Assembly (NCBI RefSeq): GCF_001552375.1
Contig: NZ_BCRB01000005.1
Span: forward strand, 1-64,000
Direction: 5' to 3'
DNA length: 64,000 nucleotides
From: Cellulomonas iranensis NBRC 101100 = JCM 18110
Lineage (GTDB): Bacteria; Actinomycetota; Actinomycetes; Actinomycetales; Cellulomonadaceae
Made by a program: the position numbers and the translations under genes. The notes under the pieces were generated by a model. It was not told the DNA's origin. It was given only the letters and a program-made list of their open reading frames with translations, and did not search any database. Positions 43,983-63,691 of the stretch are shown piece by piece. Position 1 is the stretch's first letter; the number at the start of each line of letters is the position of its first letter.

Positions 43983-44148
43983 GACGTCCTCCCGGGTGCA
44001 GTGCTTCCAGTCTGCACGCCTGCGACACGCCGGGAGGGTCCGCGACAGGCGGTCCACGTCAAGTAGCCGGTCGCTCGCCCAGGACCAGCCGACTCGACGC
44101 GGGCGCGACCTCGACGACCACCCATCTCTGACCAGCGAAGACAACTCT

Positions 44149-44190
44149 GTGCGCCTGGGCAGATCCGAACTGCCGACACCCGCCTTAGGA
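44149..44190. other. Att-like remnant: copy of the 3' half of tRNA-Arg
   Basis: These 42 bases repeat 51480-51521 with two T-to-C differences. The copy covers the tRNA 3' end through the T-arm and anticodon arm and stops just past the anticodon, then diverges. This is the displaced target half left when an integrative element inserts at a tRNA 3' end. Confidence 0.88.
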
Positions 44191-44515
44191 TCCGATCTTG
44201 GACTGTGGACAACGCGCTGACCAGCGGAACGACGCCCACGTAGTTGGGATCGTGACCGCGTTACGGGTTCCTGCTGACCACGCGCTGACCCCGGGGCGCC
44301 CGCTTCCCCTCTACCAGGCGGGCCGCGAGACGCGATGCAGCCACGGCCGGAGGGCAATGACGGGTGGGCGAGCGGCGGCGCTGCGCCACCCGGCTACCGG
44401 TTGACGACTTGAGCGCGACTAGGCGATCTTGGAGCGGTCAGCCGTGCCCCGGCACACTCAGTCCGCGCATAGCCGGGCGCGCGCACGCGAGTTGGTTCCA
44501 GACGAGCGGAAACCC
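44191..44515. other. Left end of island 1, non-coding, with GCTGACC repeats
   Basis: No gene is supported. GCTGACC motifs occur at 44216-44222, 44273-44279 and 44284-44290. The double unit at 44273-44290 (GCTGACCACGCGCTGACC) matches 51390-51407 near the other island end at 17 of 18 bases. Such repeats inside both element ends resemble integrase or excisionase arm sites. Confidence 0.5.
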
Positions 44516-47500: not shown

Positions 47501-48055
47501 TTCCTCGAGCTTGTCGCATCGATAGTCGCCGTCGCCGGGATCAGCGTCGAAGAGCGACAGGCCCTCCTAGACGGCAGCGTCCTGGCCAACGACGGCGCAC
47601 ACGCCGCAGACTTCGCGGAAGCAGCTGTTCGCCTGCTGCAGTCCGACCGCTTCGACGGAGCAGCAGTATGGGAACGTTGGCTCGGTGATCACGTGAGGGC
47701 CCGCCTCGCCGGGATTCCGCGAACAGCAGAACTGGAGGAACTCGCTCGTTGGGCTGACGCATTGCCGCATCTAGGGTCGGCAATACCGGAAGCGTCAGGC
47801 ATGCTGGGTGGACGGGGAATTGGCTTGGGCGACCGGTTCTTCGATCCCGACTTTCCCGATGGGGTGCTGCTCGAGCACGGACCGACCCTCGTCGAGCACT
47901 ACGTTGAACGAATCCGGAACTCTTCACCCACCGGCCATCTCGTTCCCCATCAGGTGCGGGATCTGATCGGCAATATGCGAGAAGTGCTCGGAAACGCCGC
48001 GGTCCAGCCCCTCGTCGCCGCGGCGACCGAGAGCGGGTTCGACAAGGACTACTGA
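44516..48055 (+). CDS. SIR2-like defence protein with long C-terminal region (DUF4020-like)
   Basis: 1,179 residues. The N-terminal 270 are a SIR2-like NAD-binding domain: FFVGAGASMG at 24-33, VTTNFDDHLL near 130, LVHLHGSV near 166 and VFVGYSHDDPIM near 208. In defence proteins such domains deplete NAD+ to stop infected cells. The remaining 900 residues are helical and resemble the SIR2_2-plus-DUF4020 architecture (for example AWSPYLHHPRYNDKLLG); they probably sense the trigger. Codon use is clearly less GC-biased than flanking genes, a sign of transfer. I start at ATG 44516 because upstream in-frame sequence is Arg-rich and unlike the fold. Confidence 0.82.
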   Translation: MWITSEVELPQAVIDAHSAGHLVFFVGAGASMGPPSSLPSFTGLARELASMARISFADTTNLDTFLGELPAGFATHAHTRALIGRAGSLPNATHTALVRLASSTGDLRIVTTNFDDHLLSAATGAGVEVRDTWFGPSLPLGDEFIGLVHLHGSVRRDPRELVLTDTDFGRAYLTRGWATRFLLPMFQEYTVVFVGYSHDDPIMRYLALGLPPRTLRFAFTPLHHAADPKWERLGVGTIGYPVVGDDHAALVAALQAWDVRARMGQTDHRSRMNEIIDAGPEMTPVDRDYLADRIATTDGARHFAAAVENAILAHKLAWLRWAEDLSGFRSIFTGGRGGEAEPTLVNWFCSVFITSPELHGAALQTVQRLGQAFSDALFRDACWAADQLGKKDTDAGRRWKMLLASSIHGHSAPVETDWLLAYFSGDHTEHVSVLRSALRPRLALKRRWFLSDAESATALPDAEARWSTAAEILASHVLKFIEATEPGDPALESLLEDALSAAYDLLDAYFGPREWDSLSFGRSAIEPHPQDEFRDPVDAVIDGLRAYGEKALPVLADLPERWWSLGRELFQRLALHLLARDQSRAPDEKISWLLDRSLIYKIGLKHEVYQVMQAAIPSASASARDRLLAAVLAGPSASEDIPDLDRYVAYAKYNALVWLTGVAPEWRDAASELEATQEANPDFAPREHPDFDRWMSSGTWGGKFPMEPDDFVQSFENDPAHALEDLVGREYSERAFDQPRWEDALSLISRVAEARPDVGEQMWRLIAERADKQAPDIRRALAGGWAKADLATYAEPAVARVSQLVGDVDSARTISRFLLEQVRSQADADETPALAAMRDIALALWHEHSTSFTHAQDLDPVSFAPLYLNSWPGELAQYWIGEIDRRWRHNRDDWSGLNEQERAALGLLLEGTDDALDATQPAVASGLFFLFAADPDFAIERVIPLFLEDATARRAWSPYLHHPRYNDKLLGAGLLEGVIAEWDRLGDLDDRLRDQFLELVASIVAVAGISVEERQALLDGSVLANDGAHAADFAEAAVRLLQSDRFDGAAVWERWLGDHVRARLAGIPRTAELEELARWADALPHLGSAIPEASGMLGGRGIGLGDRFFDPDFPDGVLLEHGPTLVEHYVERIRNSSPTGHLVPHQVRDLIGNMREVLGNAAVQPLVAAATESGFDKDY

Positions 48056-48397
48056 CCAAGGGGCACGTTCGTCGTCCTCTGGCACGGTGCGGACGTACGA
48101 GGTGGGCAACCGATTGAAACGAGCGGGGTACCCATGCAACCGGTGTCGCTTGCCCAGCTTCTGAGGAGTCGTGGTCATCCGGGGCATCTTCTACTCAGGG
48201 GATCGAGGTTGCGCCGCAGACCCTCGGAGCGCCCCGGCACCACCAACAGCGCATCGATGCAAGAAGAGTCAGGGTCCGTTATCGGCTCTGGAGGTGCCGA
48301 GGAGGGCGTCGCACGGTCAACAAGGTGGCACCGCGGCATCAGGCCGTCCGCCGCGGGCCGATCTTGAGACTCAGTGCCTTGCCGCCGATAGATAGGC
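48056..48397. other. 342-bp gap between SIR2 and NERD genes
   Basis: No supported gene, hairpin terminator or RNA. Short open frames here lack ribosome sites. TAGATA at 48390-48395 just before the NERD ATG may be a leaderless -10. Confidence 0.5.
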
Positions 48398-49282
48398 ATG
48401 ACGACCACGTCCGGCAGGGACGCCGTCAACGCGGCCAAGGTGATGCGTCTGCGCTACGCGGGCACCTGCGCAGGGTGCGGCGCAGAACTCGAGTCCGGAA
48501 CCCGCGCGGCGTACTGCAAGGCCACGAAGACCGTCCGCTGTCTCGCATGCACTGAGCCGGACGAACCAGTGCCTTCGGTGGCGCAGCCTGTGGACTCGAC
48601 GCCGGCACCCACCCTGGCTGACATCGAGACGGGGACAGCGGGCTCCTCCGCCCGACGCGAGTACGAACGTCGGTCCGCCAAGCGCGAGGCTCGCATCCGC
48701 GAGGCGCACCCTCGGCTTGGTGGCCTCATCCTCGCGCTCTCCGAGGAGCCTCAGAGCACGACAGCCTGGGCCCGCGGCGCCCGCGGCGAGGAGCTGCTGG
48801 GCGCGCGGCTGGCCGATCTGACGGGGAACGGCGTCCGTCTTCTCCACGACCGACGCATCCCGGGGACGAGGGCAAACATCGACCACATCGCCGTGGGCCC
48901 CACAGGCGCTCACGTCATTGACGCCAAGCGCTACAAGGGCCGGCCGTCACTTCGCGTCGAGGGTGGGCTGCTCCGGCCGCGCGTGGAGAAGCTCCTCGTC
49001 GGCTCCCGCGACTGCACCCGCTTGGTCGAAGGCGTCCAGGAGCAGGTCGGTCTCGTCCGGTCCGCGCTCGACGCAGCGTCGCTCACGGACGTGCCCGCAC
49101 ACGGTGCGCTGTGCTTCATCGAGGCCGACTGGCCCCTCATCGGTGGATCGTTCGTCATCGCCGACGTCGCCGTCGTGTGGCCCAACAAGCTCGCCGAGCG
49201 ACTCGTTGCACCGGGCCCGATGAGCGAGGCGGAGGTCGAGAGAACCCACCGTGCGCTGGGAAGGGCATTTCCGGCCGCATGA
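48398..49282 (+). CDS. NERD-domain nuclease-like protein with N-terminal zinc-ribbon
   Basis: 294 residues. CAGCG near residue 25 and CLAC near 48 could form a zinc ribbon. The NERD domain (about 120-260) has GARGEELLGARL, the catalytic-type stretch RIPGTRANIDHIAVGPTGAHVIDAK and RLVEGVQEQVGLVRSAL, the PD-(D/E)xK-like pattern D...D-x-K. NERD proteins are predicted DNA-processing enzymes often found in mobile or defence regions. It is inside island 1, but its GC-rich codon use is closer to the chromosome than the SIR2 gene's, so the cargo may have mixed origins. Confidence 0.85.
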   Translation: MTTTSGRDAVNAAKVMRLRYAGTCAGCGAELESGTRAAYCKATKTVRCLACTEPDEPVPSVAQPVDSTPAPTLADIETGTAGSSARREYERRSAKREARIREAHPRLGGLILALSEEPQSTTAWARGARGEELLGARLADLTGNGVRLLHDRRIPGTRANIDHIAVGPTGAHVIDAKRYKGRPSLRVEGGLLRPRVEKLLVGSRDCTRLVEGVQEQVGLVRSALDAASLTDVPAHGALCFIEADWPLIGGSFVIADVAVVWPNKLAERLVAPGPMSEAEVERTHRALGRAFPAA

Positions 49283-49313
49283 GCCGAGCGAGGCTCGTGC
49301 TACGACCGCTTCT

Positions 49314-50096
49314 CTAGCAGCCGCGGCGAACGAGTTCCGTCCACCGCGCGTGTAGAACGTCGAAGTAGGGACCGGCATCGAGCCCGTGATGGCCGAGAGA
49401 GAACCCGTCGTTCGCTTCGATCAGGACCACTCGGTCGGGTGCGACGACGCCGACGTCGAGCGCACAGCCGGCCGGAAGGTGCCCGCGCACCTCGTCGACG
49501 ACTACCTGCACCCCACTGAGGCCGGGAGCTTTACTCGGGTCGCCGTCGTAGTGCCGGACCCCGAGGATCTCTCCGTGCCGAAGGAAGACCCTGTGCTCGC
49601 TGACGATCTCGATCACGTCGGAGCACCAGACTGGGGTGGCTGAGCTGCTGACAGGCAGCGCCCGAAGGTCCAGCGGTTGTGCAACCACGCGCCCGGCGAA
49701 CCGCTTGGCGACGCCTCGGGGCTTGATGAAGACGGGCTCGCCCCGGTGCTCGAGCCCGGCGGCGACCGCGCCGAGTGTGCTCGGCCAGATCGCTCTACCG
49801 AGGGCCGTGACGGGAGCGTCGAGGTAGTCAAGCGGCTCGGGCATCGCCAGGCCGTTTCGATGCAACGCCGCCCTGATGAACGGCAACCCCCCAACGACCA
49901 GTCCCGAGCCTTCGACGGGCGCACGCCCACGCACGACCTGCCGAAGAAGCGTCTGGCGAGGCTCGAGGCCTCGCGCCATCAGGGCGTCCTCCAGACCGAC
50001 GAGGTCCTCCTCAAGCCGATTCGGGGCCGTGAGCTCGAGGACTGCGTGCGCCGCAGCATCCAGCGACGTCGAACGCTCTGCCGTGGCCTCCAGCAC
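49314..50096 (-). CDS. ATP-grasp domain protein (DUF4343-like)
   Basis: 260 residues. The ATP-grasp core is visible as GEPVFIKPRGVAKRFAGRVV (ATP-binding Lys), WCSDVIEIVSEHRVFLRHGEILG and a metal-binding end VLIEANDGFSLGHHGLD. Such proteins join a carboxylate to an amine or tag peptides using ATP; the DUF4343-type group is uncharacterised. It is convergent to the NERD gene in island 1. The start could be any of several codons near 50096. Confidence 0.75.
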   Translation of the reverse strand: MLEATAERSTSLDAAAHAVLELTAPNRLEEDLVGLEDALMARGLEPRQTLLRQVVRGRAPVEGSGLVVGGLPFIRAALHRNGLAMPEPLDYLDAPVTALGRAIWPSTLGAVAAGLEHRGEPVFIKPRGVAKRFAGRVVAQPLDLRALPVSSSATPVWCSDVIEIVSEHRVFLRHGEILGVRHYDGDPSKAPGLSGVQVVVDEVRGHLPAGCALDVGVVAPDRVVLIEANDGFSLGHHGLDAGPYFDVLHARWTELVRRGC

Positions 50097-50320
50097 GCCC
50101 GGAACTTAGCGTCCCGCCGGCCTCCAAGTGAGTCCGGGTGCCCGTGCGCGCTGAAGCTGTTGTCCGCCGCCGACTGTCACCCGCCCCGCGACCAGCGAGA
50201 TCGCACGTTGGTAGGCCGGCTGGCACACCTCTCCCGGAAAACTGTCGCGGCGGCAGGCATCTTCTCCTCCCTGCCGCACACCTGCACGTAGCGACGGGTT
50301 CGCGAAGGGAGGTGATGCGC

Positions 50321-50755
50321 GTGATGTCGATGGCAACGGCGACCAGGCACCGGGCCCTCCTTGTCATGCACGCGCTCGCGGATTGGGGCGCCCCGGAGAT
50401 TGCGGACTACGACGTGTTCCTCGAGAACTTGTCTCGGGATCTGCATCACGAGAGAGAACTCCGCCTGTGGGAAGCCCTCGCGTGCAGCTACTCAGTGGTA
50501 TGCACCTCACACGAGTTGAGTACCGAACAGAAGCGCAGTCTCCTGCGACTACTACTCGCCGCGACCTTCGGACGAGCAGAGCACACAGCCGCGGAAGCAC
50601 TCGGGGCAGAGGTGGCCGCGCGGGCGATTGATCACTTCGGCGACTGTCTGAGGCTCGCCCGCGGTGAAGTGGTGATCGGCGAGGGAGTGCTTCGGGGGCT
50701 CGTGTCGCGAGACAGCGAGGCGCCCGACCAAGCGGACGGCCAGCTCGGCGACTAG
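50321..50755 (+). CDS. Unknown helical protein in island 1
   Basis: 144 residues, mostly amphipathic helix, acidic and Leu/Ala-rich (LRLWEALACSYSVVC, RSLLRLLLAATFGRAEHTAAEAL), without signal or membrane segment. The GTG at 50321 lies eight bases after AAGGGAGG; GTG 50312 and ATG 50315 or 50324 are alternatives. I recognise no family. Confidence 0.65.
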   Translation: MMSMATATRHRALLVMHALADWGAPEIADYDVFLENLSRDLHHERELRLWEALACSYSVVCTSHELSTEQKRSLLRLLLAATFGRAEHTAAEALGAEVAARAIDHFGDCLRLARGEVVIGEGVLRGLVSRDSEAPDQADGQLGD

Positions 50756-50781
50756 CACCTCGCTTCCCCCTGCCTCATTCC

Positions 50782-51282
50782 TCACTCACGGGGCAGGGAC
50801 AAGCGGGCTCGAAGCGCAGAAAGGAAGTCGTCGTATGCGGCCTGCCAACGAGCCTCTGCGGCCTCCTGCCGCCCTGGGTCACTGACTGGGGCGGGTGGCG
50901 ACAAGAGAGCACCGGCGAGTCGGGCAAGATCGGGGGCAAGGAGCTCTATCCGCACGCGCTCAACGAGGGCGCGTGCCCGCTCCTCCTCTCGCCGGGCGAT
51001 GGACTCAACCCTTCTATCCCACGAAATCGCGGCCGCCTCCGTGTGACCCGCCTCGCGAGACGCCCTCCAGTTCTCGATCCAGTCCAGGGTGTCGGCAGCG
51101 TGACGGCGATACTCGGCAACCGCCCCGAGGTACGCGTTCGCGGTGTCAAGGAGGCGATGCTGGAGGGCCTCTCCTCGGCGTCGCGCGGCGTCCACGCGCG
51201 CGAGCTGCATACCGACGAGGTACGTGACGCCGCCGCCGACGACCACACCAAGCAGCGACGCCAGCAGCGTTCCCCAATCCAT
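50782..51282 (-). CDS. Small single-pass membrane coiled-coil protein
   Basis: 166 residues. A transmembrane segment at about 5-24 (LLASLLGVVVGGGVTYLVGM) is followed by a charged helical tail (ARVDAARRRGEALQHRLLD, VESIARREEERARALVERVRIELL) likely to be coiled coil. This shape is common in phage- or island-borne accessory proteins. It is the last gene before the tRNA att site. No function is known. Confidence 0.7.
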   Translation of the reverse strand: MDWGTLLASLLGVVVGGGVTYLVGMQLARVDAARRRGEALQHRLLDTANAYLGAVAEYRRHAADTLDWIENWRASREAGHTEAAAISWDRRVESIARREEERARALVERVRIELLAPDLARLAGALLSPPAPVSDPGRQEAAEARWQAAYDDFLSALRARLSLPRE

Positions 51283-51389
51283 GTCAACACCGTAGGGCCT
51301 CAGCACTTGGGAGCCTCGGTCGCTCGGCTCCGCCGTCCGCCAGGGTTCGTCCACGTCGTTGACAGGTCGTCCACTCCCTGAGACCAGTC

Positions 51390-51407
51390 GCTGACCACAC
51401 GCTGACC
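51390..51407. repeat. GCTGACC double unit at right end of island 1
   Basis: GCTGACCACACGCTGACC matches the left-end copy at 44273-44290 with one difference and in the same orientation. It lies 73 bp inside the right att site; the left copy lies 83 bp inside the left one. Confidence 0.7.
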
Positions 51408-51479
51408 AATGGCGGACAAATCGAACCCGTCCACCGCAGTCGGGGCGCCGACACCGCCTCTGGCCTGCGTAACACCTCG

Positions 51480-51521
51480 GTGCGCCTGGGCAGATTCGAA
51501 CTGCCGACACCCGCTTTAGGA
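51480..51521. other. Att-like site in the intact tRNA-Arg
   Basis: The 42-bp partner of 44149-44190, overlapping the 3' 40 nt of the functional tRNA gene up to the anticodon. Together the two sites define a 7.3-kb integrated element. Confidence 0.88.
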
Positions 51522-51553
51522 GAGCGGTGCTCTATCCCCTGAGCTACAGGCGC
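51482..51553 (-). tRNA. tRNA-Arg(CCU)
   Basis: 72 nt without encoded CCA. A full cloverleaf can be drawn: acceptor GCGCCTG/CAGGCGC, D-arm GCTC/GAGC, anticodon arm CCGCT-CTCCTAA-AGCGG with anticodon CCU, five-base variable loop GTGTC, T-arm GGCAG-TTCGAAT-CTGCC. It reads AGG codons. It is the integration site of island 1. Confidence 0.95.
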
Positions 51554-51941
51554 GCGGGGCCTGCGAGAAACGTGGTCGGAAACCCGGCGAGGATCGCGAC
51601 CGGCACGTCTGGGAGTGTTCTCGATGGACCCGTGCTGCGCCGGTCGGGCCGTGCGGTCCGATCGGCGCGGGTTCAGCCTACCGGTGCACGGCTCCGGGAT
51701 GCGCCGATAGCCCCTCGAGGGGGCTGGTGTCGGACGGTGTGGTTCGGGGGTGTCAGGCGGCGGGCGTTAGCGCCTGGTCGCGTTGACGCCGGCGGTGATG
51801 CCAGTCAGCGACGGCGTTGTGCGTGACCGCGAAGGACAGCATGACGAGCGCTTGGCGTTCGGCTGTGAGGGCGACCATGCGTCCTCGGTAGAGCCAGTCG
51901 TCGAGCTGGGAGTGGGATGACTCGGCGTCGTTGCGCCACCC
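51547..51941. repeat. Copy A of the tRNA 5'-flank repeat
   Basis: 395 bp, recognisably homologous to 60109-60504 in the same orientation but diverged. Positions 51648-51686 are identical to 60211-60249 over 39 bp, including TAGGCT on the minus strand (51675-51680), a possible -10. Both copies stop matching after TTGCGCCACCC; here the match is cut by an IS3-type end. Confidence 0.82.
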
Positions 51942-51945
51942 GGGG
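51753..51945 (-). pseudogene. C-terminal fragment of transposase-like gene, copy A
   Basis: About 63 codons remain, starting GWRNDAESSHSQLDDWLYRG and ending at a stop, with upstream coding sequence replaced by the IS3-type element. The NDAES-type end resembles actinobacterial transposase C-termini with a catalytic Glu, a family call from memory and therefore modest. Confidence 0.5.
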
Positions 51946-52011
51946 ACTGCCCCCGGTTCGGTTGACTCCTGGCCTGCGAGGGACGTGTTCCTCGCTGGAA
52001 GGATCAGCATC

Positions 52012-52311
52012 GTGCCTGTCGCATACCCGCCGGAGTTCCGGCGAGACGTGATCGCTGTCGCCCGGCGCGGCGAGCAGTCCCGGGCGCAGGTCGCCCGCAG
52101 CTTCGGGATCTCCGAGTCCTGCCTGGCGCGCTGGTTGGCGATCGCCGACCGGGAAGACGCCCGTGCCTCAGGCCGCCGCGAGCCCGACCCGGTGCCCGGC
52201 GGCGAGGACGAGGTCCGCGAGTTGCGTCGCCGGCTCAAGCAGGTCGAGCAGGAGAACGAGATCCTACGCCGTGCAACGGCCTACTTCGCCCGCGACATCA
52301 TCCCAAAATGA
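52012..52311 (+). CDS. IS3-family OrfA (helix-turn-helix transposase subunit)
   Basis: 99 residues: YPPEFRRDVIAVARRGEQS and VARSFGISESCLARW form the DNA-binding helix-turn-helix, and LRRRLKQVEQENEILRRA is the leucine-zipper segment. It is intact and ends AAATGA, overlapping the orfB start, as in IS3 elements. Without a working OrfB it cannot transpose alone. Confidence 0.88.
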   Translation: MPVAYPPEFRRDVIAVARRGEQSRAQVARSFGISESCLARWLAIADREDARASGRREPDPVPGGEDEVRELRRRLKQVEQENEILRRATAYFARDIIPK

Positions 52312-53160
52312 TGTACCCGCTGGTCGGTGACCTGGCCGCGGACGGCATCCCCGTCGCGGTGACCTGCCGGGTGCTCGGGTTCTCCAAGCAGGCGTACTAC
52401 GCCTGGCGTTCGCGGCCTGTGACCGACCGGGACTGGGACGACGCGCACCTGATCAACGCCGCGATCGACATCCATCACGACGACCCGGAGTTCGGGTACC
52501 GGTTCATCGCCGACGAGCTGCCCGCTCACGGCATCCGCGCCGGGCGCAACCGGGTGCACCGCCTATGCAGCACGGCATGGCTGTTGTCAGCCCACGCCAA
52601 GAAGCGCGGGAACGCCCGGCGGCCCGGCCCGCCGGTCCACGACGACCTCGTCGAGCGGGACTTCACCGCCGAGCGGCCCAACCAGCTGTGGCTCACGGAC
52701 ATCACCGAGCACCCCACCGCCGAGGGCAAGCTCTACCTCTGCGCGATCAAGGACGCGTGCACCAACCGGATCGTCTGATACTCGATCGACTCCCGGATGA
52801 CCTCGCAGCTGGCTGTCAACGCGCTGGCCAACGCCGTCGCGCTGCGCCGACCGGCCGGCACCGTGGTCCACCCAGTTCCGCTCCCATGCCTACGTCCACG
52901 CCCTGCGCGCCGCCGGGCTGACCGGGTCCATGGGCCGGGTTGGAGCCTGCGCCGACAACGCCGCGATGGAGTCGTTCTTCGCGCTGCTGCAGAAGACCGT
53001 CCTGAACCGCCGCCGCTCGTGGGCCACCCGCCAGGACCTGCGCCTGGCGATCGTCACCTGAATCGAGAAGACTTACCACCGCCGACGCCGCCAAGACCGC
53101 CTCGGACGCCTGACGCCCATCGAGTACGAGACACTGCTCCAAGCCGCTTACGCGGCATGA
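52308..53160 (+). pseudogene. IS3-family OrfB transposase, inactivated
   Basis: The N-terminal half reads well to ACTNRIV, then hits an in-frame TGA at 52776-52778 where Gly is expected. At about 52869 a small deletion removes the conserved SDRGSQ (second catalytic Asp) and shifts frame; the last part (DNAAMESFFALLQK, third catalytic Glu) continues in another frame and holds a further TGA at 53059-53061 where Trp is expected. The first catalytic Asp is present in LWLTDITEH. It is clearly dead. Confidence 0.9.
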
Positions 53161-53493: not shown

Positions 53494-54417
53494 ATGGCGG
53501 TCATGACGACGCCAGTCCCGACGCCAGTCCCGACGTCGCCGTGGCCCTCGCACGTGGTCTTCGAGTCGGACTCCAGTTCCATCTGCCGGACGAGCACCAA
53601 CCCCGGGCCGAAGCGTCTGCAGCAAGCAGCGCTCGAGATCGTCAACGCGATCAGCAGCATCTCGATCTCCGGGCCTAGCGACGGGATCGTCTGGCGAGGT
53701 CAGGCCGACGAGGCATGGAGAGTCGAGTCGAAGGCGACGCGCCAGAAGAAGAGCTCGGCTCAGATCCGCGATCACGAGACGAACATGCTCCAGACGATCC
53801 GGACTATCGGCGCAGACCGCGCCCAGTACACCGGCGATTGGGAGCTGCTCGCCCGCCTGCGCCACCACGCCGCGGCCACGCGCCTCATCGACGTCACGAC
53901 CGACCCGTTCGTCGCGCTGTGGTTCCTCTGCGACGACGACTCGACCGCGGGCGGGGTCAACGTTCGGACGCGGCCTGGACTCCTCCTCGCGTTTCAGCGG
54001 AGGGCATTTACGACGATCCGCAACCCTCACGCGGTCGACTCGTACGACCAGCTCCACTCGAGGAAGCCCGCCCGACTGATCTACTCGACGCCCACGATCG
54101 ACCCCCGCATCGCAGCGCAGCGAGGACTCTTCGTGCTGCACAGCGACCCGGATACCACTGCCGGCTCGACGGTCTCCGAGCTCGGCGACTTCACGGCACC
54201 CGCCTCGTGGAACTCAACACAGATGAAGGACCTCGGGATGGCGCACGGCACGGTGGGTCGTGGGCGCAGACGGACCAACTTCCCTGAGGCGCTTGGGATC
54301 GTCGTGCCGGCCGCGGTCAAGCCCGTGCTACTGGACCGTCTTGAGACGAACTTCGGCTTCACGAGAGCGACCATCTACCCGGACTTCAGCGGGGTCGGGC
54401 AGATGTTCGCATCCTGA
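53494..54417 (+). CDS. FRG-domain protein
   Basis: 307 residues. The FRG domain is recognised from IVWRGQADEAWRVESKATR at about 65-83 and LLARLRHHAAATRLIDVTTD followed by PFVALWFLCDDD at about 120-152; these Arg/Gly/His blocks are its conserved core. FRG proteins are frequent in mobile and defence regions but their biochemistry is unsettled. The C-terminal third is unassigned. ATG 53494 or 53503 may start it. It heads the plus-strand cargo of island 2, 104 bp before the possible nuclease gene. Confidence 0.8.
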   Translation: MAVMTTPVPTPVPTSPWPSHVVFESDSSSICRTSTNPGPKRLQQAALEIVNAISSISISGPSDGIVWRGQADEAWRVESKATRQKKSSAQIRDHETNMLQTIRTIGADRAQYTGDWELLARLRHHAAATRLIDVTTDPFVALWFLCDDDSTAGGVNVRTRPGLLLAFQRRAFTTIRNPHAVDSYDQLHSRKPARLIYSTPTIDPRIAAQRGLFVLHSDPDTTAGSTVSELGDFTAPASWNSTQMKDLGMAHGTVGRGRRRTNFPEALGIVVPAAVKPVLLDRLETNFGFTRATIYPDFSGVGQMFAS

Positions 54418-54521
54418 GCCGCGAGGAACGGGAGCCGAATGGGTGACCTGCCGCCGATCTGAGCGTCACTGCGCACGCGAAGGTGACACAGTGCAGTCAT
54501 CGAGACCTTCGCGCTTGGAAA

Positions 54522-55433
54522 GTGGTGCCGCACGTGCGTTCGATCCCTGAGAAGACCCTTGAGCACTGGACTTCGCTCTACGCGACGTACCGGTACCGGT
54601 CGCACGCGGCGTTGTGGTGGCCAACTCGCGGCGAGGATGTTCGAGTCGGTGATATCGCCCCGGGCTTGTTCGGGAAGATGTTCAACCTCGAGATCAAGAC
54701 CACGGAGGCGTCGGGAACAGACCACCACGCGTACGTCGATGTCGCACAGCTACGCAGGTATCTCGCGAGTCCGGTGCCGACCTACTACGTGTTCCCGCTA
54801 CCCGGATGGGTGGGACCGATTCATCTGGCCGCGGCCGGACCGTGGCGAGGCGGTGTGCCCAAGACGGAGTTCGGGTTCATGAGGTCGCACGGCCGTTGGT
54901 TTGGGAACTGGACGATTGTGATTCCGGACTACGCGCTGTACGCGCCGATCGCTTACGCAGACGCGCACGGCGACCCCGTCAAAGACCACGAGCGGGTCTT
55001 CACGGTAGACACGACCAGCGCGGGCGCCCCGCGGCGGCAGCGAGGTCTGTACGCCGCACCGTCCTCGAGCAAGCTGACCTCGTGGAGTTGGCGCGAGTTC
55101 TGGGAACTGATGGAGGTGTGCGGCGGTTCGAGTGCGATGCCGGCGATGTTCGCCGTGTCTGGAGGGGGCGGCGACGGCCCGGTTCACCGTTCGGCGCTGG
55201 TCGCGAAGATTGCGGCGGTGGCTCGGCTCGAAGAAGCCACATCCCCGGTGTTCTACGCGCCCGCTGATCGACAAGCAGTGCCGACCCTCGACCAGGAGTA
55301 CGCGCCGATCGCTGCGACAAGCGTCGCGGTGTCCGGGGAGCGGGTGAGGGACGGGGCCGACGACCGCCACGACTCGCACCTGACGTCGGTGTACTTGTCC
55401 GCAGCACAGATCGCCTCAGCCCGAGCGAGCTGA
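54522..55433 (+). CDS. Unknown protein, possible PD-(D/E)xK nuclease fold
   Basis: About 303 residues. The first 100 include ALWWPTRGEDVRVGDIAPGL and FNLEIKTTE, an acidic-x-Lys pair resembling the D...ExK site of restriction-type nucleases, then YVDVAQLRRYL and YYVFPLPGW. The rest is low in recognisable motifs. GTGs at 54483, 54522, 54525 and 54534 are all possible starts; I took 54522 after GGAAAG without strong preference. The nuclease idea is inference from one motif. It sits between the FRG gene and a small ORF. Confidence 0.6.
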   Translation: MVPHVRSIPEKTLEHWTSLYATYRYRSHAALWWPTRGEDVRVGDIAPGLFGKMFNLEIKTTEASGTDHHAYVDVAQLRRYLASPVPTYYVFPLPGWVGPIHLAAAGPWRGGVPKTEFGFMRSHGRWFGNWTIVIPDYALYAPIAYADAHGDPVKDHERVFTVDTTSAGAPRRQRGLYAAPSSSKLTSWSWREFWELMEVCGGSSAMPAMFAVSGGGGDGPVHRSALVAKIAAVARLEEATSPVFYAPADRQAVPTLDQEYAPIAATSVAVSGERVRDGADDRHDSHLTSVYLSAAQIASARAS

Positions 55434-55506
55434 CAGCGACCAACACATCGGCCTCGAGAACAGCACGAGCGCTCCAAACTCGCCACAGATGGATCAAGGA
55501 GAGCAG

Positions 55507-55770
55507 ATGACACCCCTCGAAGCGCTGTGGGACGCCGACGTGAACACCGCGGGCTACATCGTCGAAGCCGCCGCCGGCGATGGCTGGACCGTCTCCGCCC
55601 GTGAACACGTCGAGATGCTTGCCCGGGCGAGCTTCACACCGGCACCGAAGACGCAAGAGATCCTCGACGTCCTGCGGAACGCTCAGTTCACCTTCCGCCC
55701 TGTGTGGTTCCCCACGGCCGGCGAAGTCATGCAAGGGAAGGCGCTTCAGGCAGTCGAAGTGTCGGGGTGA
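55507..55770 (+). CDS. Small unknown protein of island 2
   Basis: 87 residues from ATG 55507, ten bases after AAGGAG. It is acidic, soluble and compact (MTPLEALWDADVNTAGYIVE, GDGWTVSAREHVEMLARASF). No family recognised. Its size and strand would suit an accessory or antitoxin-like subunit of the nearby genes. Confidence 0.6.
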   Translation: MTPLEALWDADVNTAGYIVEAAAGDGWTVSAREHVEMLARASFTPAPKTQEILDVLRNAQFTFRPVWFPTAGEVMQGKALQAVEVSG

Positions 55771-56098
55771 AGGCGGGTGATGGGTCTGCCGCGCGGACAG
55801 GTGAAAGCTGTCACCCACTCCTGCAGCAGACCCTGCGGCCGAAACGTCCGGCGGCGTGCGCTGTGGCGGGCGGTCCGAGTGCGGTGTGTGCGCGTGCGGT
55901 CGCGGCGGCGATGGCGCTGCGGGCGGGGGCGTGGCTGATCATGACGAGCTGCTGGTCGGCGAGCTTGCCGACGATCATGCGGTTGCGGTAAACGCCGGTG
56001 TGGAGGACGTCGCTGATAACGAGGACGCCTCGGCCAGTCAGGACGACTATGTCGTTTTCTGCTTCACCAAGGTTGACCAGCACTGCCAGGAGAGGGCT
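55771..56098. other. 328-bp gap before the DUF6414/AAA+ pair
   Basis: No gene can be supported. A minus-strand open frame over it (containing LADQQLVMISHAPARSAI) has protein-like composition but I know no family for it; it may be a decayed fragment. The 3' end holds the ribosome site GGAGAGG of the next gene. Confidence 0.4.
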
Positions 56099-56866
56099 AT
56101 GAGCAAAGAATCCGGTGAGGAAACCCGAAAGCCGATGATCAAGGTCGTGTACTTTGACGAGCAGAGCGCGTCGGACTATCTCGACATCACCGCGGGCGGA
56201 AAAGCCGAGACCACCAGCGGGGAGGTGCGCGAACGCACGCGTGACATGCACTCGAAGGTGGAGACGCAGCTCGCCGCGAAGTTTAGCTGGCTGCCGTTCG
56301 TGGGCGCGTCAGCCCAGGTGGGCGCCGGCATCGACGTGGCGAGCGTCGGGCAGAGCATCCTGAGCAAGACGCTGTCGAACACGATCTTGACCGACTACCT
56401 CGCGGAGGTGTCCAGCGACAGCCGCGTCCGCGTCCTGGAGGGCTTGAGCGTGACCGCACCGAAGGACTCGGCGGCCTACGTGAAGATGTACACGCCCTAC
56501 ATGATCATCGCTCGCACCGAAGACTCCGGTCTCGACATCGCACGGATGGACGAAGCGTTCGAACGAGCTAAGGGCTACTACGATCTTCTCGGCACGGACA
56601 ACGAAGGTCACAAGTGTGTGCTGCGTTTCAACATCCGCGCGTTCCGCAACAACTACGGTCTGGCGGACCTCCGGCGGATGCGCCTGGTCTACCACGGTGT
56701 GCGCGTCGGCGAGACGACCGAGGCAGATCTCGCCATGAGGGCCGAGATGTCCGGGGACCACGACCCCGAGCCGACATCCGCGGTGGATATCCTGGACGGC
56801 GATTCGCCTGCGGCTCCGCCTCTGGACGTGTTTGACGTCATCCTGGCGGGTGTCTCCGGTGAGTGA
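56099..56866 (+). CDS. DUF6414-like protein
   Basis: 255 residues from ATG 56099 after GGAGAGG. The start KPMIKVVYFDEQSASDYLDI is the pattern I associate with DUF6414. A Gly/Ala-rich, partly hydrophobic stretch follows at about 60-85 (WLPFVGASAQVGAGIDVAS), then a mixed alpha/beta region and an acidic tail. The family has no known function. Its stop overlaps the AAA+ gene's GTG by eight bases, so the two proteins are probably made together and act as a pair. Confidence 0.65.
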   Translation: MSKESGEETRKPMIKVVYFDEQSASDYLDITAGGKAETTSGEVRERTRDMHSKVETQLAAKFSWLPFVGASAQVGAGIDVASVGQSILSKTLSNTILTDYLAEVSSDSRVRVLEGLSVTAPKDSAAYVKMYTPYMIIARTEDSGLDIARMDEAFERAKGYYDLLGTDNEGHKCVLRFNIRAFRNNYGLADLRRMRLVYHGVRVGETTEADLAMRAEMSGDHDPEPTSAVDILDGDSPAAPPLDVFDVILAGVSGE

Positions 56867-58001
56867 CCCGACCGTAACCATCTATTACGGGCCGCTCACC
56901 TGGTTCACGGACGAGATCGGTGCGACTCCTCACGAACGCCTAATGGATTTGGTGTTCGCACGCGAGGAAGATCGCCGCACAGTTCTTCACCGGCTCGAGG
57001 GCGCCCCCGATCCGGGGGAGGACCCCGAGGATGCTGAGGCTGCGCGACCGCACCGGGTGGTGGCGGAGTCCGGTGACTACGCGAGCCTGCAAGAGCACGT
57101 GATCACGAACTTTGCCGGTCTCGTCCGGCAGCTGCGCCCGCACGAGCTCCACCTTCAGAACCCGCCGGCGGCGGTCCGTGCGCAGTTGGAGCGGGTCGCG
57201 GACGTAGAGATCAAGACGTACCCATATCCGCGGGTGACGAAAGAGGTCGTGAGGGCGGTCCGTGACGGGTTCGCCGATCACCTCGTGGGCCAGGCGCACG
57301 TGAAGGAGTCCCTGCTGGCAGCACTGTACCCATTGACCCGCGAGAACCGCTCCGCACCGATCGTCCTGATGTTCTTCGGCCCATCCGGTGTGGGCAAGAC
57401 CGAGACCGCCCAGTTCGTCAACGGCCTGCTGGGTGGCAGGCTGCTGCGCAAGCAGTTCTCGATGTTTCACAGTGACAAGTTCGCTTCCTATCTTTTCGGC
57501 GGTACGCACTCGGAGGCATCGCTAGCGCGGGACCTGCTCGACCGGGAGTCCGGGGTGATCCTGATCGACGAGTTCGACAAGGCCAACCCGGTCTTCCACA
57601 GCGCGTTCTACCAGTTGTTCGACGGTGGCGAGTTCGAGGACAAGAACTACAGCGTGACTGTGGGTCCGTCGTTGATCATCTGCACGTCGAACTACGAGTC
57701 GGTCACCCAAGTCCGAGATGCCCTTGGCGACGCCTTGTACTCCCGGTTCGACGCGATGATCGAATTCAAGAGCCTGTCGGCCGAGCAAATCGACGTGGTG
57801 ATCGACCGGCTCGTCGCGGACCGCTTCACCAAACTCGATGCGGACGAATCGGCGCGAATCGATCCGGCGGAGGTCACGGCGCTCCTCAAGGCAGGCGCGA
57901 GCCGCACCGGCAACGTCCGGAGGCTTGGGAAGTTTGTCGACGAACTCATCTCGCTGATGCTCGTTCGCTCGTGGACGCACGAGGAGGGGTCACCCATCTA
58001 G
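56859..58001 (+). CDS. AAA+ ATPase of ClpA/ClpB type
   Basis: 380 residues. N-terminal 135 residues are unassigned. The AAA+ module has GQAHVKESLLAALY, Walker A GPSGVGKT at 174-181, Walker B VILIDEFD at 233-240, sensor-1-like LIICTSNYES and a candidate Arg finger in YSRFD. Among AAA+ groups this is nearest the second ATPase domain of ClpB/torsin, used to thread or remodel proteins; no protease partner is encoded nearby. It overlaps the DUF6414-like gene by eight bases and ends before a hairpin at 58231. Confidence 0.88.
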   Translation: MSDPTVTIYYGPLTWFTDEIGATPHERLMDLVFAREEDRRTVLHRLEGAPDPGEDPEDAEAARPHRVVAESGDYASLQEHVITNFAGLVRQLRPHELHLQNPPAAVRAQLERVADVEIKTYPYPRVTKEVVRAVRDGFADHLVGQAHVKESLLAALYPLTRENRSAPIVLMFFGPSGVGKTETAQFVNGLLGGRLLRKQFSMFHSDKFASYLFGGTHSEASLARDLLDRESGVILIDEFDKANPVFHSAFYQLFDGGEFEDKNYSVTVGPSLIICTSNYESVTQVRDALGDALYSRFDAMIEFKSLSAEQIDVVIDRLVADRFTKLDADESARIDPAEVTALLKAGASRTGNVRRLGKFVDELISLMLVRSWTHEEGSPI

Positions 58002-58230
58002 CCATCTCGCGCCGGCCTGAGGGTCAGCCGTCGAAGCTGCGGTCGCAGATCGTCCAACCGTGCGTCAGTTCCACCGAGCACTCGGTGGCATGACGGTACC
58101 TGACTGGGAGCCGGGATCCTGCAGGCCAGCAAGAGGACCCGTTTCCGATCTGGGAATGTCCACCTTCGGCTTAGCGACTCTATGCCAGTTGACCAGCGAC
58201 GACGGGTTATTTGACAAGTGCCATATCCGA

Positions 58231-58260
58231 GGTGGCTGGGCTCGTCGAAACCCAGCCACC
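58231..58260. terminator. 10-bp stem hairpin after the AAA+ gene
   Basis: GGTGGCTGGG and CCCAGCCACC pair around CTCGTCGAAA. It lies in the 383-bp gap 58002-58384 between the convergent AAA+ and AlbA_2-like genes and could end both transcripts. The rest of the gap shows no gene. Confidence 0.6.
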
Positions 58261-58384
58261 GGGTTCAAGGTCGAGCCGACAAGCACCGAGTTGCAGCTTG
58301 CCTCGAGCACGAACTACGCGGCAGGGGCCCGGACCGTTCGCGCCAATGCCTTGGACGCACCGACCTCGGCGCGCCTGGGTTCCC

Positions 58385-59818
58385 CTACCCCAGGTTATCG
58401 AGATGAGTCTCGATAACCTCCGAAACGTCTGGTGCCTCGTCGATCGCCAGGGTCATCTCACCCTCGTATACTCTGTGGTGCCCCCTTGACGTTAGGGTCC
58501 ACGTCCCGCGAACGGTCGCCATACCGGGGTCGCGGACAACGACGACGAATGTCTCATCCGGGAACGCCTCGACCTCTTCTCGGGGCCGCAGGTCTCCGAT
58601 CGACCACGTGCCGTTGATGGATCCGCCGTTACTCCAGGAGAAATCGGGGGGCGTGTACGCAGAGGGCAGCGACGGTACGTACATGGACGGCCCGGGCATC
58701 GTTGCCCAAGGGCTTGGTTCGGGTCGAGGTCCCCACGCACGCGGAGGTCGAGGTGGCCAGTCGCTCCGAGAGATTGCCGCCTCGCGCGGTTCCAGACCTT
58801 CGACGTCACCTTCGAGGTGGATAGAGAGCTCCACGTCCTCGAGAAAGGTGTCCGCACGGTTCGCAACTCGAACGATCACGGGCTCAGCCGCGCGCGCGAG
58901 AAGCGCATCAAGGAAGTTCGAGATAGCGTCCTGTGCTTTCACCTCCCAGGCGCGCACGGATGCCACGTAATCCTCACGGGCGCGGTCCTCAGGGATTGCC
59001 CTGCCTACGAGAGGGTTCATCAACGGCACGTTTGAGCGGAGAGCCTCCCGCAGCGAGGAAACGGCAGCAAGCTCCGTCAGCGAGTGAACTGGTCGCTCGA
59101 CGGGCGGTTCCTCGTCAGGCAGCTTGCGTAGGAGTGCCGCAGCCACCTTGGTTACATGCGCGCCCAAGAAGCCCGGGTCGACGGCTGGCCGCACTGCCGT
59201 TCCAACGAGGGTGACCTCGATGTCGACGCTTGGATGGCTGGTCTTGCCGCGCTGGATCAGAGCGGCAATCTCCTCAGCGGTCGCCGGACGTGTCGACCCT
59301 TCGGCGCGAATGTACAGCCCACCGTTACGCAACGAGTACTTCTGCTCGCTTTTCTCACTCGGCGAGAAGTCGCGCCAGCAGAGAAACGGGTCTTGTCCTG
59401 CGACGGGCGGGTCAACGAGAACCAGCAGCACGTCGCGATCCGAGGAGACAGGGACTCGGACAACATCCCACCCGGGACCGGAAGCGGTGACGAACGGGCG
59501 AACCCGTTCTTCGATCTCACCGATCTCGATGGCAGGGATTCCCGGTGCGACACCCGGAGCGACGCCGATAACCATGACGCCATAGCCGCCGAACGCCCGG
59601 TTCGCAAGTTCTACGGAACGGTTCGCAGCCCCGAGAATGAACTTTGCGACCTTGGCCGCGCCTAGCGTCCGCGTGAGGTCGATGTCCGACTTCACCTCGA
59701 GGTAGTGCCGCTCCGCCCGGTCGTCCGTGCGAACGAGCGCCTCCACCAGCCGACGGGCGGCGAGCTCGCCTGTCGGAGGGCGGGTCGTATCGATGGGCGG
59801 CGCGTCCTTATCGGCCAT
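58385..59818 (-). CDS. AlbA_2/Schlafen-like putative DNA-binding protein
   Basis: 477 residues. The N-terminal 190 match the AlbA_2 (divergent AAA_4/Schlafen-type) layout: ERHYLEVKSDIDLTRTLGAAK, then AKFILGAANRS, GGYGVMVIGVAP and GGLYIRAEGSTRPAT. Such domains bind nucleic acid or nucleotides and some are nucleases. The C-terminal half includes a Pro-rich linker (about 340-395) and a beta-rich end. It is the only minus-strand cargo gene of island 2. Its 3' end holds an 11-bp inverted repeat (58393-58418). Confidence 0.75.
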   Translation of the reverse strand: MADKDAPPIDTTRPPTGELAARRLVEALVRTDDRAERHYLEVKSDIDLTRTLGAAKVAKFILGAANRSVELANRAFGGYGVMVIGVAPGVAPGIPAIEIGEIEERVRPFVTASGPGWDVVRVPVSSDRDVLLVLVDPPVAGQDPFLCWRDFSPSEKSEQKYSLRNGGLYIRAEGSTRPATAEEIAALIQRGKTSHPSVDIEVTLVGTAVRPAVDPGFLGAHVTKVAAALLRKLPDEEPPVERPVHSLTELAAVSSLREALRSNVPLMNPLVGRAIPEDRAREDYVASVRAWEVKAQDAISNFLDALLARAAEPVIVRVANRADTFLEDVELSIHLEGDVEGLEPREAAISRSDWPPRPPRAWGPRPEPSPWATMPGPSMYVPSLPSAYTPPDFSWSNGGSINGTWSIGDLRPREEVEAFPDETFVVVVRDPGMATVRGTWTLTSRGHHRVYEGEMTLAIDEAPDVSEVIETHLDNLG

Positions 59819-60108: not shown

Positions 60109-60504
60109 CAGGCGCGCGGGACAGGCGAGAAACGTGGTCAAGAACCCGTCGGCGGTCTCGACCGGCACTGCTGAGCGTGGTCTCGCTGGTCCCGTGCTGC
60201 GCCGGCCGGGGCCGTGCGGTCCGATCGGCGCGGGTTCAGCCTACCGGTGCCGCGACTCGGGGTGCGCCGATCACCTCAAGGGCTGGTGTCGTCGTAGTTC
60301 AGTTGGGGGGTGGCTTCAGGCAGCGGGAGCGAGTGCCTGCGTGCGCTGCCGTTGGCGGTGATGCTAGTCGGCCACGGCGTCGTGCGTCACCGCGAAGGAG
60401 AGCATGACCAACGCTTGCCGTTCGCCTGTGAGCGCGACCATGCGACCGCGGTCGAGCCAGGCGTCGGGCTGGGAGTGGGACGACTCGGCGTCGTTGCGCC
60501 ACCC
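60109..60504. repeat. Copy B of the tRNA 5'-flank repeat
   Basis: Homologous to 51547-51941. It begins with CAGGCGC, the complement of the first seven tRNA bases, but the rest of the tRNA is missing, so it looks like a tRNA-Arg locus that lost its gene body. It includes the second transposase-like fragment. Confidence 0.8.
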
Positions 60505-60560
60505 GTGCGTCGACGTGTCGACGGGCGCGCACCGGTGGGTGCATGCGGAGGCGCTCAGGG
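60364..60560 (-). pseudogene. C-terminal fragment of transposase-like gene, copy B
   Basis: Reads APVDTSTHGWRNDAESSHSQ and on to LVMLSFAVTHDAVAD, then a TAG where copy A has Trp. The reading frame extends somewhat further upstream than in copy A, because copy A is cut by the IS element. No start codon or complete domain remains. Confidence 0.5.
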
Positions 60561-60980: not shown

Positions 60981-63368
60981 TCACGGGACTAGTCGGACGT
61001 AGCCGCGGAGTCCCAGAGCGATCATCCGATCCTCGAAGAACTTCGCCGCGGCTGGGCTGTTGGTGACGTACTCAATCACTCCTGTGTCTCCTAGTCGGCT
61101 CGCTGCCTCTGCCAGGCGAAGGAGCCGCTTGTCCATGACGCGTGTCGCGACCTCTTCGAGCTTGCTTCCCACGGCCGGTTCGTAGAACGAGCTCCCCGAT
61201 CCCGGTGCGACGTACTTGGCATCTCCCACGGCGCCGTAGGTCGAAGTGAAACCGTCGGGAAGTGTGCGGCCCTCAGCAAGCTCGACGACACGCTCGTTGT
61301 CGCCGTAAACCCTCAACTGGTACTGCAGCTCGTCACCCTTCGCTGAGAGAGGAACGTGCGGGAGCGCCTCGTACCGTGCCACCGCCGCAGCTTCCTCAGC
61401 GGCCGACAGGGCCGGTTGCACGGTCCCGTCAGCCAGCGGCACCGGCCTCCTTCCGAAGAACCAGTCGAGGTCGATCACCCCAGCGTCGGACCCATCCGTG
61501 AGTAGCGCGCGACGCGTCGCGAGCCAGGCGGCGGGGTCCGCGGCGACGTCTTTCGCGGTGGTCCGCACGCTGCGGCCGATCGTGGCGCCGGCGAAGTTCG
61601 CTGGTGCGAAGGTGAGCGCGACACCGAGGGTGTCGGCGGCGACCTGGGCGGGGGTGGCGGTCAGGACGTAGTCGCGCGTGGCCCGCTGCGGGTCGCGCAT
61701 GAACGTCGCGATGCCGCCGGACTTGTCCAGGCCCCAGGTCAGGACCCCGGAGATTCCGAACGCGAAAGCGAGGGAGCCCCCGGACAGCGTCACGAGCGCG
61801 GCGATGCCGAGTCCGATGAGCAGCTGCGTGCTCATCGGTTGGTCGTGCCACCAACGACCGAGGTCCTCGATCAGCCCGGCCAGCCAGCTCGCACCGTAGG
61901 TCTCGTGGTACCGCTGCAGGTCCCACGGGTAAGGGCCGAACCGTGCAGCGGCCGCCGGGGCCACCCCGAGCGCGAGGACGAGCAGCAACCCGAGGGCGGT
62001 CCCGGCGAGTGCCTGTGCGCGGAGGACTGCGCTTCGAGTCGGGGTGCCCGCCAGGGTGTCGTAGGCGAGCTCGCGGGCCGCACGCTGGGCCGCCGCGGCG
62101 TCCTGCCCGCGCAGCACGGCGACCCGTCGCGGCTCGTCCGGCTGCCGGGCGAACGCCGCCACCGTCTGCGTGACGTCGCGGACCACGACCCAGACCCACC
62201 ACGTCACCACGGCGGCGATGCCCTCGAAAAGACGCGCTGCCCGCCCTCGGCCGCCTGCCTTCCAGCCCCGCCCCGCCCATGAAGGCGCCACGTCGTGGAC
62301 CAAGCCGGGTGCACGCAGCGACCGCAACCGATGCGCGTCGAGGAGCGTGCACATGACGGCAACGAGCACGACGAGCGCCACCCGGCCGTGGCCGTGGCCG
62401 AGCACCGACCAGGGCACCCGGACCCACCACGGCACCGACGTCACCGCCGGGTCCAGCCACCGCGGTGTGCCGTCCGGTGACAACGCGCCCGCGTCGACCT
62501 GGACGTTCAGACCTCCGTGGTCCGCGATCGCCACCCACAACGCCAGCAACGGCGCGAGCAGTGCCACCGCACGAGCGATCGCGCCACCTGCGTCCCCTTG
62601 CCGACGGCTCCACCGCCATACCCCGACGCCGACTCCGACCGCGCCCGTGACCGTCGCAGTGAGCACACCGTGACCGCCGTACGCGGCGATCTCTCCATGC
62701 AGGGCGTTCGGCACCGGGACCCACCCCAGCTGCACCCAGTCCGGGGGCACCCCCTCACCGCCGGACCAGAAGCGAGTCATCATCCCCGACGTCGTGACCA
62801 TCAACGCCGTGCGACGCGCGGCCTCCTCGACGGCCACGAACGCCGTGCCTGCGGCCCACCCCAGCAGCAGCCAGTCCACCGCAGCGAACCGTCGCGCACG
62901 CCGCGGCGCGAGCAAGGCGACCACGGCTACCGGGACCAGCTTCAGAGCCTCCTCGCTCAGCGAGGCGATCATCACCGTCGGTCCAGAACCGCCCGCCGTC
63001 GACGCGACACGGAGCGCCAAGACGGTGCACACAGCCGCGACCACGAACGACCACGTCACGCACCCAGCGAAGTAGCGCATGCACCCGGCCCACGTGAGGG
63101 TCCTGGTCCGTGCCAGGACCCACCAGGCGACAACCAACCACACGGCACCCACGTACCCGCGCACCGCCAACCGCAGATCTGGCACCACCACCAGCAGCGC
63201 CAGCACCCACGCCAACGTGACCCACAATCCGATCGCACGCACCCGCGCCCACCGCGCCGCCAGCACCGGACGAGCCACCCACCACTGCGCGCGACGCTGC
63301 GCCCAGACCTGCCACCACTCCCGCGGCAGCGCAGCACCCACCGGACTCTCCACGGCGGTCGCCGACAC
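60981..63368 (-). CDS. PrsW-family membrane protease fused to a C-terminal nuclease-like toxin domain
   Basis: 795 residues from a GTG at 63368. The N-terminal 330 are polytopic and carry PrsW glutamic-protease motifs: IASLSEEALKLVPV, FVAVEEAARR and ALHGEIAAYGGHG. More membrane segments follow near 425-445 and 490-535. From about 640 the protein becomes soluble. The C-terminal 120 residues hold TYGAVGDAKYVAPGSGSSFY (D-x-K) and a helical end, matching restriction-nuclease-fold toxins. Likely a polymorphic toxin delivered or released via the protease part; the partner gene downstream would protect the cell. Confidence 0.82.
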   Translation of the reverse strand: MSATAVESPVGAALPREWWQVWAQRRAQWWVARPVLAARWARVRAIGLWVTLAWVLALLVVVPDLRLAVRGYVGAVWLVVAWWVLARTRTLTWAGCMRYFAGCVTWSFVVAAVCTVLALRVASTAGGSGPTVMIASLSEEALKLVPVAVVALLAPRRARRFAAVDWLLLGWAAGTAFVAVEEAARRTALMVTTSGMMTRFWSGGEGVPPDWVQLGWVPVPNALHGEIAAYGGHGVLTATVTGAVGVGVGVWRWSRRQGDAGGAIARAVALLAPLLALWVAIADHGGLNVQVDAGALSPDGTPRWLDPAVTSVPWWVRVPWSVLGHGHGRVALVVLVAVMCTLLDAHRLRSLRAPGLVHDVAPSWAGRGWKAGGRGRAARLFEGIAAVVTWWVWVVVRDVTQTVAAFARQPDEPRRVAVLRGQDAAAAQRAARELAYDTLAGTPTRSAVLRAQALAGTALGLLLVLALGVAPAAAARFGPYPWDLQRYHETYGASWLAGLIEDLGRWWHDQPMSTQLLIGLGIAALVTLSGGSLAFAFGISGVLTWGLDKSGGIATFMRDPQRATRDYVLTATPAQVAADTLGVALTFAPANFAGATIGRSVRTTAKDVAADPAAWLATRRALLTDGSDAGVIDLDWFFGRRPVPLADGTVQPALSAAEEAAAVARYEALPHVPLSAKGDELQYQLRVYGDNERVVELAEGRTLPDGFTSTYGAVGDAKYVAPGSGSSFYEPAVGSKLEEVATRVMDKRLLRLAEAASRLGDTGVIEYVTNSPAAAKFFEDRMIALGLRGYVRLVP

Positions 63369-63691
63369 CCTGCCCCCCTGCAAATCGGACCTCACGGCCG
63401 CGCAGCACCGTAGCGGGTCACGAGTCGCCCACCGGCCGATCCTGCGCCGAGCCACCCATACGGATCAGCGACGTCCCAGCACGATCACCCCGTGAGCAAA
63501 CGTCCGATCACCGGCGAGCCGCGCAACGAGCCGGCGCTGCGCCCCCGACGACGCGACCGTTGAGGTGATCGCGCCAGACGGCCCGGACTCGATAGTGGCG
63601 CTCCACGCATCCGGCGCTGCGCTGCGTCAGGCAGGTCGCTACGCGTCTTCGCTTCCTTGCCATGGTGGAGGGAAGCGTGGAGCCCCCCACC
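63369..63691. other. 323-bp gap upstream of the PrsW-toxin gene
   Basis: No gene, RNA or repeat that I can support. It should contain the promoter of the toxin-immunity pair; no clear hexamers stand out. Confidence 0.4.

Follow-up and report, generated by a model that had tools for sequence, protein, structure and literature searches.

Dodola was reportedly first described and named in a paper of 2022. In the passages of PMC11514479 that concern it, it consists of two genes, dolA and dolB, the product of the second having a ClpB domain, and its activity against phage SPP1 is cited; the sections of PMC12322248 given to it report broad protection, against all of the streptococcal phages tested, and a growth delay when Dodola was placed in the chromosome. 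Here we compare with it a locus of Cellulomonas iranensis NBRC 101100 that lies in a stretch of 64,000 nucleotides (contig NZ_BCRB01000005.1, positions 1 to 64,000 of the forward strand; hereafter the window). The original prediction was of an undescribed six-gene defence or stress system at 53494-59818, with an overlapping pair of genes as its most likely core. The choice of core was right, and the word undescribed was wrong: a PADLOC run names the pair Dodola, a system already named in PADLOC-DB 2.0.0 (2023), and with this naming the candidate new system comes off the list; detection as a named system was what the prediction itself had given as a refutation.

The dolA-dolB pair and its relatives

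The two genes of the pair are:

56099..56866, + strand: DolA (DUF6414) of Dodola
56859..58001, + strand: DolB (ClpB-type AAA+ ATPase) of Dodola

Both proteins match the PADLOC models over nearly their full length. DolA matches PDLC03837 at 2.5e-75 (residues 11-252 on positions 3-257 of a model of 258) and the Pfam family DUF6414 at 6.3e-28; DolB matches PDLC03838 at 6.4e-130 (residues 15-383 of the longer, 389-residue open reading frame (ORF), on positions 4-373 of a model of 375) and Pfam AAA_2 at 2.2e-12, so that Pfam bears out the DUF6414 and AAA+ labels first given to these genes. Four other pairs run through PADLOC score comparably, with DolA at 1.2e-57 to 1e-76 and DolB at 3.6e-105 to 2.8e-123. 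The predicted 8-bp overlap of the two genes holds with a GTG start at 56859, a codon that aligns with Met-1 of six other DolB proteins in our alignment. The identity of the pair, the order dolA then dolB, the overlap and the complete set of AAA+ motifs in DolB can all be read directly from the DNA, and as to identity we have very little doubt, judging from these features, that 56099-58001 is an intact Dodola operon in an actinobacterial genome, beside unrelated cargo next to an apparent tRNA-Arg hotspot. The window's copy differs from known Dodola in its actinobacterial host and high-G+C codons, whereas the plasmid copies of DolA found by tblastn are all in Bacillota genera.

Relatives were sought with DolA since a search with the DolB profile proved uninformative. 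At 1e-20, PDLC03838 finds matches in 193 of 198 genomes, our own included, and in 10 of 14 control genomes as well; among the matches listed, the best in any other genome is 2e-30, and these matches are partial and lie mostly within open frames of about 700-1,500 residues, which we take to be ClpA, ClpB or ClpC. By tblastn, DolA matches 17 of 72,556 plasmid records at 25-33% identity, the 17 being from seven Bacillota genera; for the records beyond those that we opened, the phylum of the genera is our assumption. An AAA+ gene lies directly 3' of DolA in all seven of the plasmid regions opened (one is shorter, 873 nt), and DolB does so in all three IMG/VR contigs, in one of which it is split into two ORFs and in one of which the 8-bp overlap is identical. 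One phage record with DolA ends soon after that gene, so that DolB there cannot be judged, and a viral scan with DolB as a single sequence gave no confirmed relative. Among annotated genes, the neighbours of the plasmid and contig copies vary (Abi, NERD, TIR, toxin-antitoxin, Fic, methyltransferase, ImmA/IrrE and several hypothetical proteins). The term DUF6414 was found in no paper by our literature search.

This distribution bears on whether DolA and DolB might instead form a housekeeping unit of protein quality control, a thought that the relationship of DolB to ClpA, ClpB and ClpC invites. We consider it extremely unlikely: among 394 genomes sampled from the class, only that of the window has DolA; plasmid copies have TIR, Abi, Fic, nuclease-related or methyltransferase annotations among their neighbours; and other copies of Dodola block phages in a published test (PMC12322248, in the part that concerns Dodola).

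We favor the reading of the pair as Dodola, and protection against phages may be expected of the window's copy by analogy with published work on other copies. Several points weigh against that expectation. We know of no activity for any actinobacterial Dodola, and the identity of the window's DolA to the plasmid copies stays within the low range given above. As far as the relevant passages go, PMC11514479 found minimal effects in its own tests for a set of systems, Dodola among them, and PMC12322248 records no effect of Dodola from one vector.

The high background of the DolB profile also has a practical side. Solitary dolB calls, for example the incomplete Dodola genes mentioned in a passage of PMC10924106, may be inflated and need dolA as a check, because in almost all of the genomes tested that profile by itself picks up large Clp-like proteins.

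Conserved motifs and a possible mechanism of Dodola

Both ends of DolA are invariant in 10 sequences, with K-x-x-Y-F-D-E near the start (K15, Y18-F19-D20-E21) and D-x-x-L-A-G near the end (D246, L249-A250-G251). In DolB the AAA+ motifs are invariant in seven sequences, from which the shorter AAA+ gene of locus L104 was excluded: Walker A (174), Walker B (233), sensor 1 (TSN, 276), the Arg finger (SRFD, 295) and sensor 2 (GNVRR, 351). DolB contains no [LIVM]G[FLY] tripeptide, which we take to be the ClpP-docking motif. Because the AAA+ motifs are kept and this tripeptide is absent, DolB probably remodels its substrate rather than serving ClpP as an unfoldase.

For DolA, the top row of the structural comparison is ExoVII. 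The later half of the protein (about residues 106-255) often aligns with proteins of the oligonucleotide/oligosaccharide-binding (OB) fold, and the titles of 23 of the 50 rows name single-stranded-DNA-binding proteins. The passage of PMC11514479 on this point likewise gives weak DNA/RNA-binding matches for one Dodola subunit, and the subunit labels there appear swapped. Against such a resemblance stand a weak model of DolA (predicted local distance difference test, pLDDT, 61.3; four sequences), a Foldseek search with that model that returned nothing at E<=0.001, and structural rows that reach Z 5.1-6.6 only. Since the scores are this low and unrelated proteins are listed too, the OB-fold resemblance can be chance. 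A profile search of PDB chains with DolA found only matches at E 0.09 or worse.

One possible scenario is that DolB would form a Clp-D2-type AAA+ ring without the ClpP docking loop, and would remodel rather than degrade; that it would act on DolA through the conserved N- and C-terminal ends of the latter; that the OB-like half of DolA would sense a nucleic-acid product of phage replication; and that ATP-driven remodelling of DolA would switch on a growth-stopping or DNA-blocking activity. This is currently a tentative working model, and we think it rather unlikely to hold in full detail. If the reading of DolA as a sensor worked by a Clp ring is true, it would give Dodola its first mechanism: the mechanism is listed as Unknown in 2025 in the relevant part of PMC12322248, and the passages on Dodola in PMC11514479, PMC12322248 and PMC10924106 offer none. 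Whatever its mechanism, the locus adds a divergent actinobacterial copy to the system.

The FRG protein and the nuclease-like protein

Upstream of the pair lie two further genes:

53494..54417, + strand: FRG-domain protein (PADLOC candidate PDC-S15)
54522..55433, + strand: PD-(D/E)xK-like nuclease, from a mainly actinobacterial family without a name

The FRG label was borne out by Pfam, with the domain matching at 7e-18 (65.8 bits against a cut-off of 25). The protein also matches the model of PDC-S15, a candidate defined by sequence only, at 3.3e-29, and phrog_4962, a phage family of unknown function, at 9.8e-19. Relatives occur in four of 117 other genomes, at 25-32% identity, and on one plasmid.

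The second gene had been called a possible nuclease with an ExK-like motif, and it does look like a PD-(D/E)xK nuclease by its motif and by the structure rows of a weak model (pLDDT 55.5). An alignment of 11 sequences, the window's own among them, shows D39, E57 and K59 without variation and Q76 as near-invariant; it leaves out L045, whose frame is broken, and takes in L043 as a fragment. In the structure comparison the first eleven rows are PD-(D/E)xK nucleases, a fold assignment that we presume for these entries, with Hjc at Z 7.8, the highest value reached, and 7.2, RecU at 6.8, and SPARDA, PvuII and DpnI among them. The family thus shares with these nucleases the invariant D and E-x-K and the near-invariant Q, but differs in that Pfam, NCBIfam, PADLOC, PHROGs and PDB chains yield nothing that matches its sequence significantly: a profile search of PDB chains with the family gave only two chance-level matches (E about 0.5), and Foldseek with the model returned nothing at E<=0.001.

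A single pattern scan across 84,980 species genomes places the family at 11 sites. One of these is on a contig labelled Melainabacteria, and the other ten are in actinobacterial genera. The family is also present on one plasmid (Tsukamurella) and in one of 57 other relatives, which is itself one of the 11 places; a viral scan confirmed none. Near its relatives (12 loci, two of them shorter than 4 kb) no relative of the other five window proteins was detected at E<=0.1, and ten chosen neighbours include a resolvase, a TrwC relaxase, HsdM, a RES protein, a transposase, helicases and a pterin-binding housekeeping enzyme. Because the neighbours vary and no FRG or other window relatives accompany it, the nuclease-like gene looks like a lone gene whose surroundings vary and are often mobile.

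We also considered whether the FRG and nuclease-like genes (53494-55433) are a separate two-gene defence system, with an ADP-ribosyltransferase (ART)-type sensor or toxin and a DNA-cutting effector. The two are on the same strand, 104 bp apart; the second has the PD-(D/E)xK features just described; and the part of PMC9503650 on FRG places the domain in the ART superfamily and suggests that such proteins are immune effectors or NADases. The pairing was first tested with a single FRG sequence, which could miss a divergent FRG, and the test was repeated with the Pfam model. No FRG domain was then found in any of 18 records (11 whole genomes with the nuclease family and seven Dodola plasmids), nor in 14 named control genomes, while the window's genome, as positive control, gave one match at 2.5e-18. 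Even the genome of a nuclease relative from the same genus (G009) has no FRG match, the neighbours of the nuclease differ from locus to locus, and the FRG relatives elsewhere are as distant as noted above. A new FRG-nuclease system is therefore very unlikely, and we rejected it on the absence of FRG from the 11 nuclease-family genomes.

It is conceivable, and on balance doubtful, that the gene at 54522-55433 is the founding member of a single-gene nuclease family, so far undescribed and mainly actinobacterial (PEKTLEHW ... E-x-K ... Q), spread by mobile elements and acting as a lone defence or element-encoded effector, and separately that DolA senses nucleic acids through an OB fold and is worked by a Clp-type ring. 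The family is in any case a small testable lead.

The remaining cargo and the tRNA-Arg insertion site

The other features of the region are:

55507..55770, + strand: orphan small ORF, 87 residues
58385..59818, - strand: AlbA_2 (Schlafen)-like protein facing the Dodola pair
51479..51553, - strand: tRNA-Arg (CCT), apparent genus insertion hotspot (ARAGORN, Rfam)
51548..51943, no strand: left copy of the repeat from the 5' flank of the tRNA-Arg, running up to the start of the insertion sequence (IS)
51931..52778, + strand: IS remains, orfA and truncated orfB (HTH_Tnp_1, HTH_21, partial rve)
60109..60505, no strand: right copy of the same repeat by repeat comparison, without a tRNA gene (no second tRNA found there)

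The six ORFs lie where they had been placed, five on the plus strand at 53494-58001 and one facing them on the minus strand at 58385-59818; this layout, the strands and the setting between repeats by a broken IS were all confirmed from ORF positions. At 0.649, the G+C content of 53.4-60.1 kb is below the 0.732 of the whole window, and a promoter and terminator scan gave nothing useful. The region is defence-type cargo with a named system as its core, and the view of defence-type genes in a mobile-looking context was sound.

The wider claim, that all six genes form one system, did not survive. It could draw on the compactness of the locus, with five genes on one strand between two repeats at low G+C, and on an IMG/VR contig (L109:2079-5545) whose DolA, DolB and AlbA_2/RecG-like genes form an overlapping head-to-tail series. 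This contig is one loose exception to the absence of co-travel with Dodola; there the AlbA_2-domain gene directly follows DolB, whereas in the window an AlbA_2-like gene faces the pair. Against the claim, the nuclease occurs at 11 places without the others, the AlbA_2-like gene in three loci without Dodola, and Dodola in seven plasmid regions with varied neighbours, and a search of 117 other genomes brought up no relative of the small ORF. The set does not recur as a unit in other genomes, and we rejected the six-gene system, whose probability we put close to nil. The four genes around the Dodola pair look like separate cargo, and what remains novel is the unnamed nuclease-like family and the divergent actinobacterial copy of Dodola.

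The nuclease-like, small-ORF and facing-gene proteins have no NCBIfam or PADLOC match and, in Pfam, nothing above the cut-off; the small ORF has no PHROG match either. Its presence was correctly predicted, and for its start ATG 55507, which is preceded by GGAGAG, is likelier than 55489. The AlbA_2 label of the facing gene is tentative. Relatives occur in four of 117 other genomes, and one of these, 43% identical (L078), scores SLFN_AlbA_2 at 27.3 bits (cut-off 25.3) and directly follows HsdR of type I restriction, like Schlafen AlbA_2 proteins of restriction loci; in contrast, the window's protein and two other relatives scanned have no match to this model above the cut-off.

The two tRNA-flank repeats are real. 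They are 82% identical over 403 columns (E 8.7e-109) and correspond to the 5' flank of the tRNA-Arg; the left copy is 80% identical to the flank in another genome (G066). The IS, of IS3 type by our reading, is dead as supposed: the orfB frame stops at 156 residues, about 35 of which match rve below the Pfam cut-off. In at least 26 of 81 genus genomes, our own included, the 3' end of the tRNA-Arg recurs as a partial copy at a distance of 3-15 kb, on the contig and strand of the tRNA itself (a hand count among the matches listed, with one further opposite-strand case not counted), and for this reason tRNA-Arg (CCT) looks like a common insertion site across the genus. In three genomes (G066, G101 and G064) no island gene lies within 19-19.5 kb of the tRNA, and in two that share the right flank (G086 and G074) none was seen in the stretches fetched, the contig of the last ending 168 bp past the match and so carrying little weight. 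In G009 the nuclease relative is about 7.4 kb from the same tRNA. A literature search returned no paper on tRNA-Arg genomic islands in Cellulomonas.

In the window itself a partial tRNA 3'-end copy of about 65 nt (88%) lies at 44126-44190. The block between it and the full tRNA, 44126-51553, is low in G+C (0.654) and holds a 1208-residue SIR2 protein that matches Dsr1 models at 5.4e-47 and 4.6e-39 (best stretch, residues 31-294), as well as a NERD protein and an R2K ATP-grasp protein; by eye, no integrase was seen among its ORFs of at least 180 residues. With this SIR2/Dsr1 block on one side and the Dodola island on the other, defence-type genes flank the tRNA-Arg on both sides. Just outside the island, 60981-63455 encodes an 824-residue protein, perhaps a polymorphic toxin, in which a Tox-REase-2 domain (Pfam 5.8e-09) lies close to the C-terminus.

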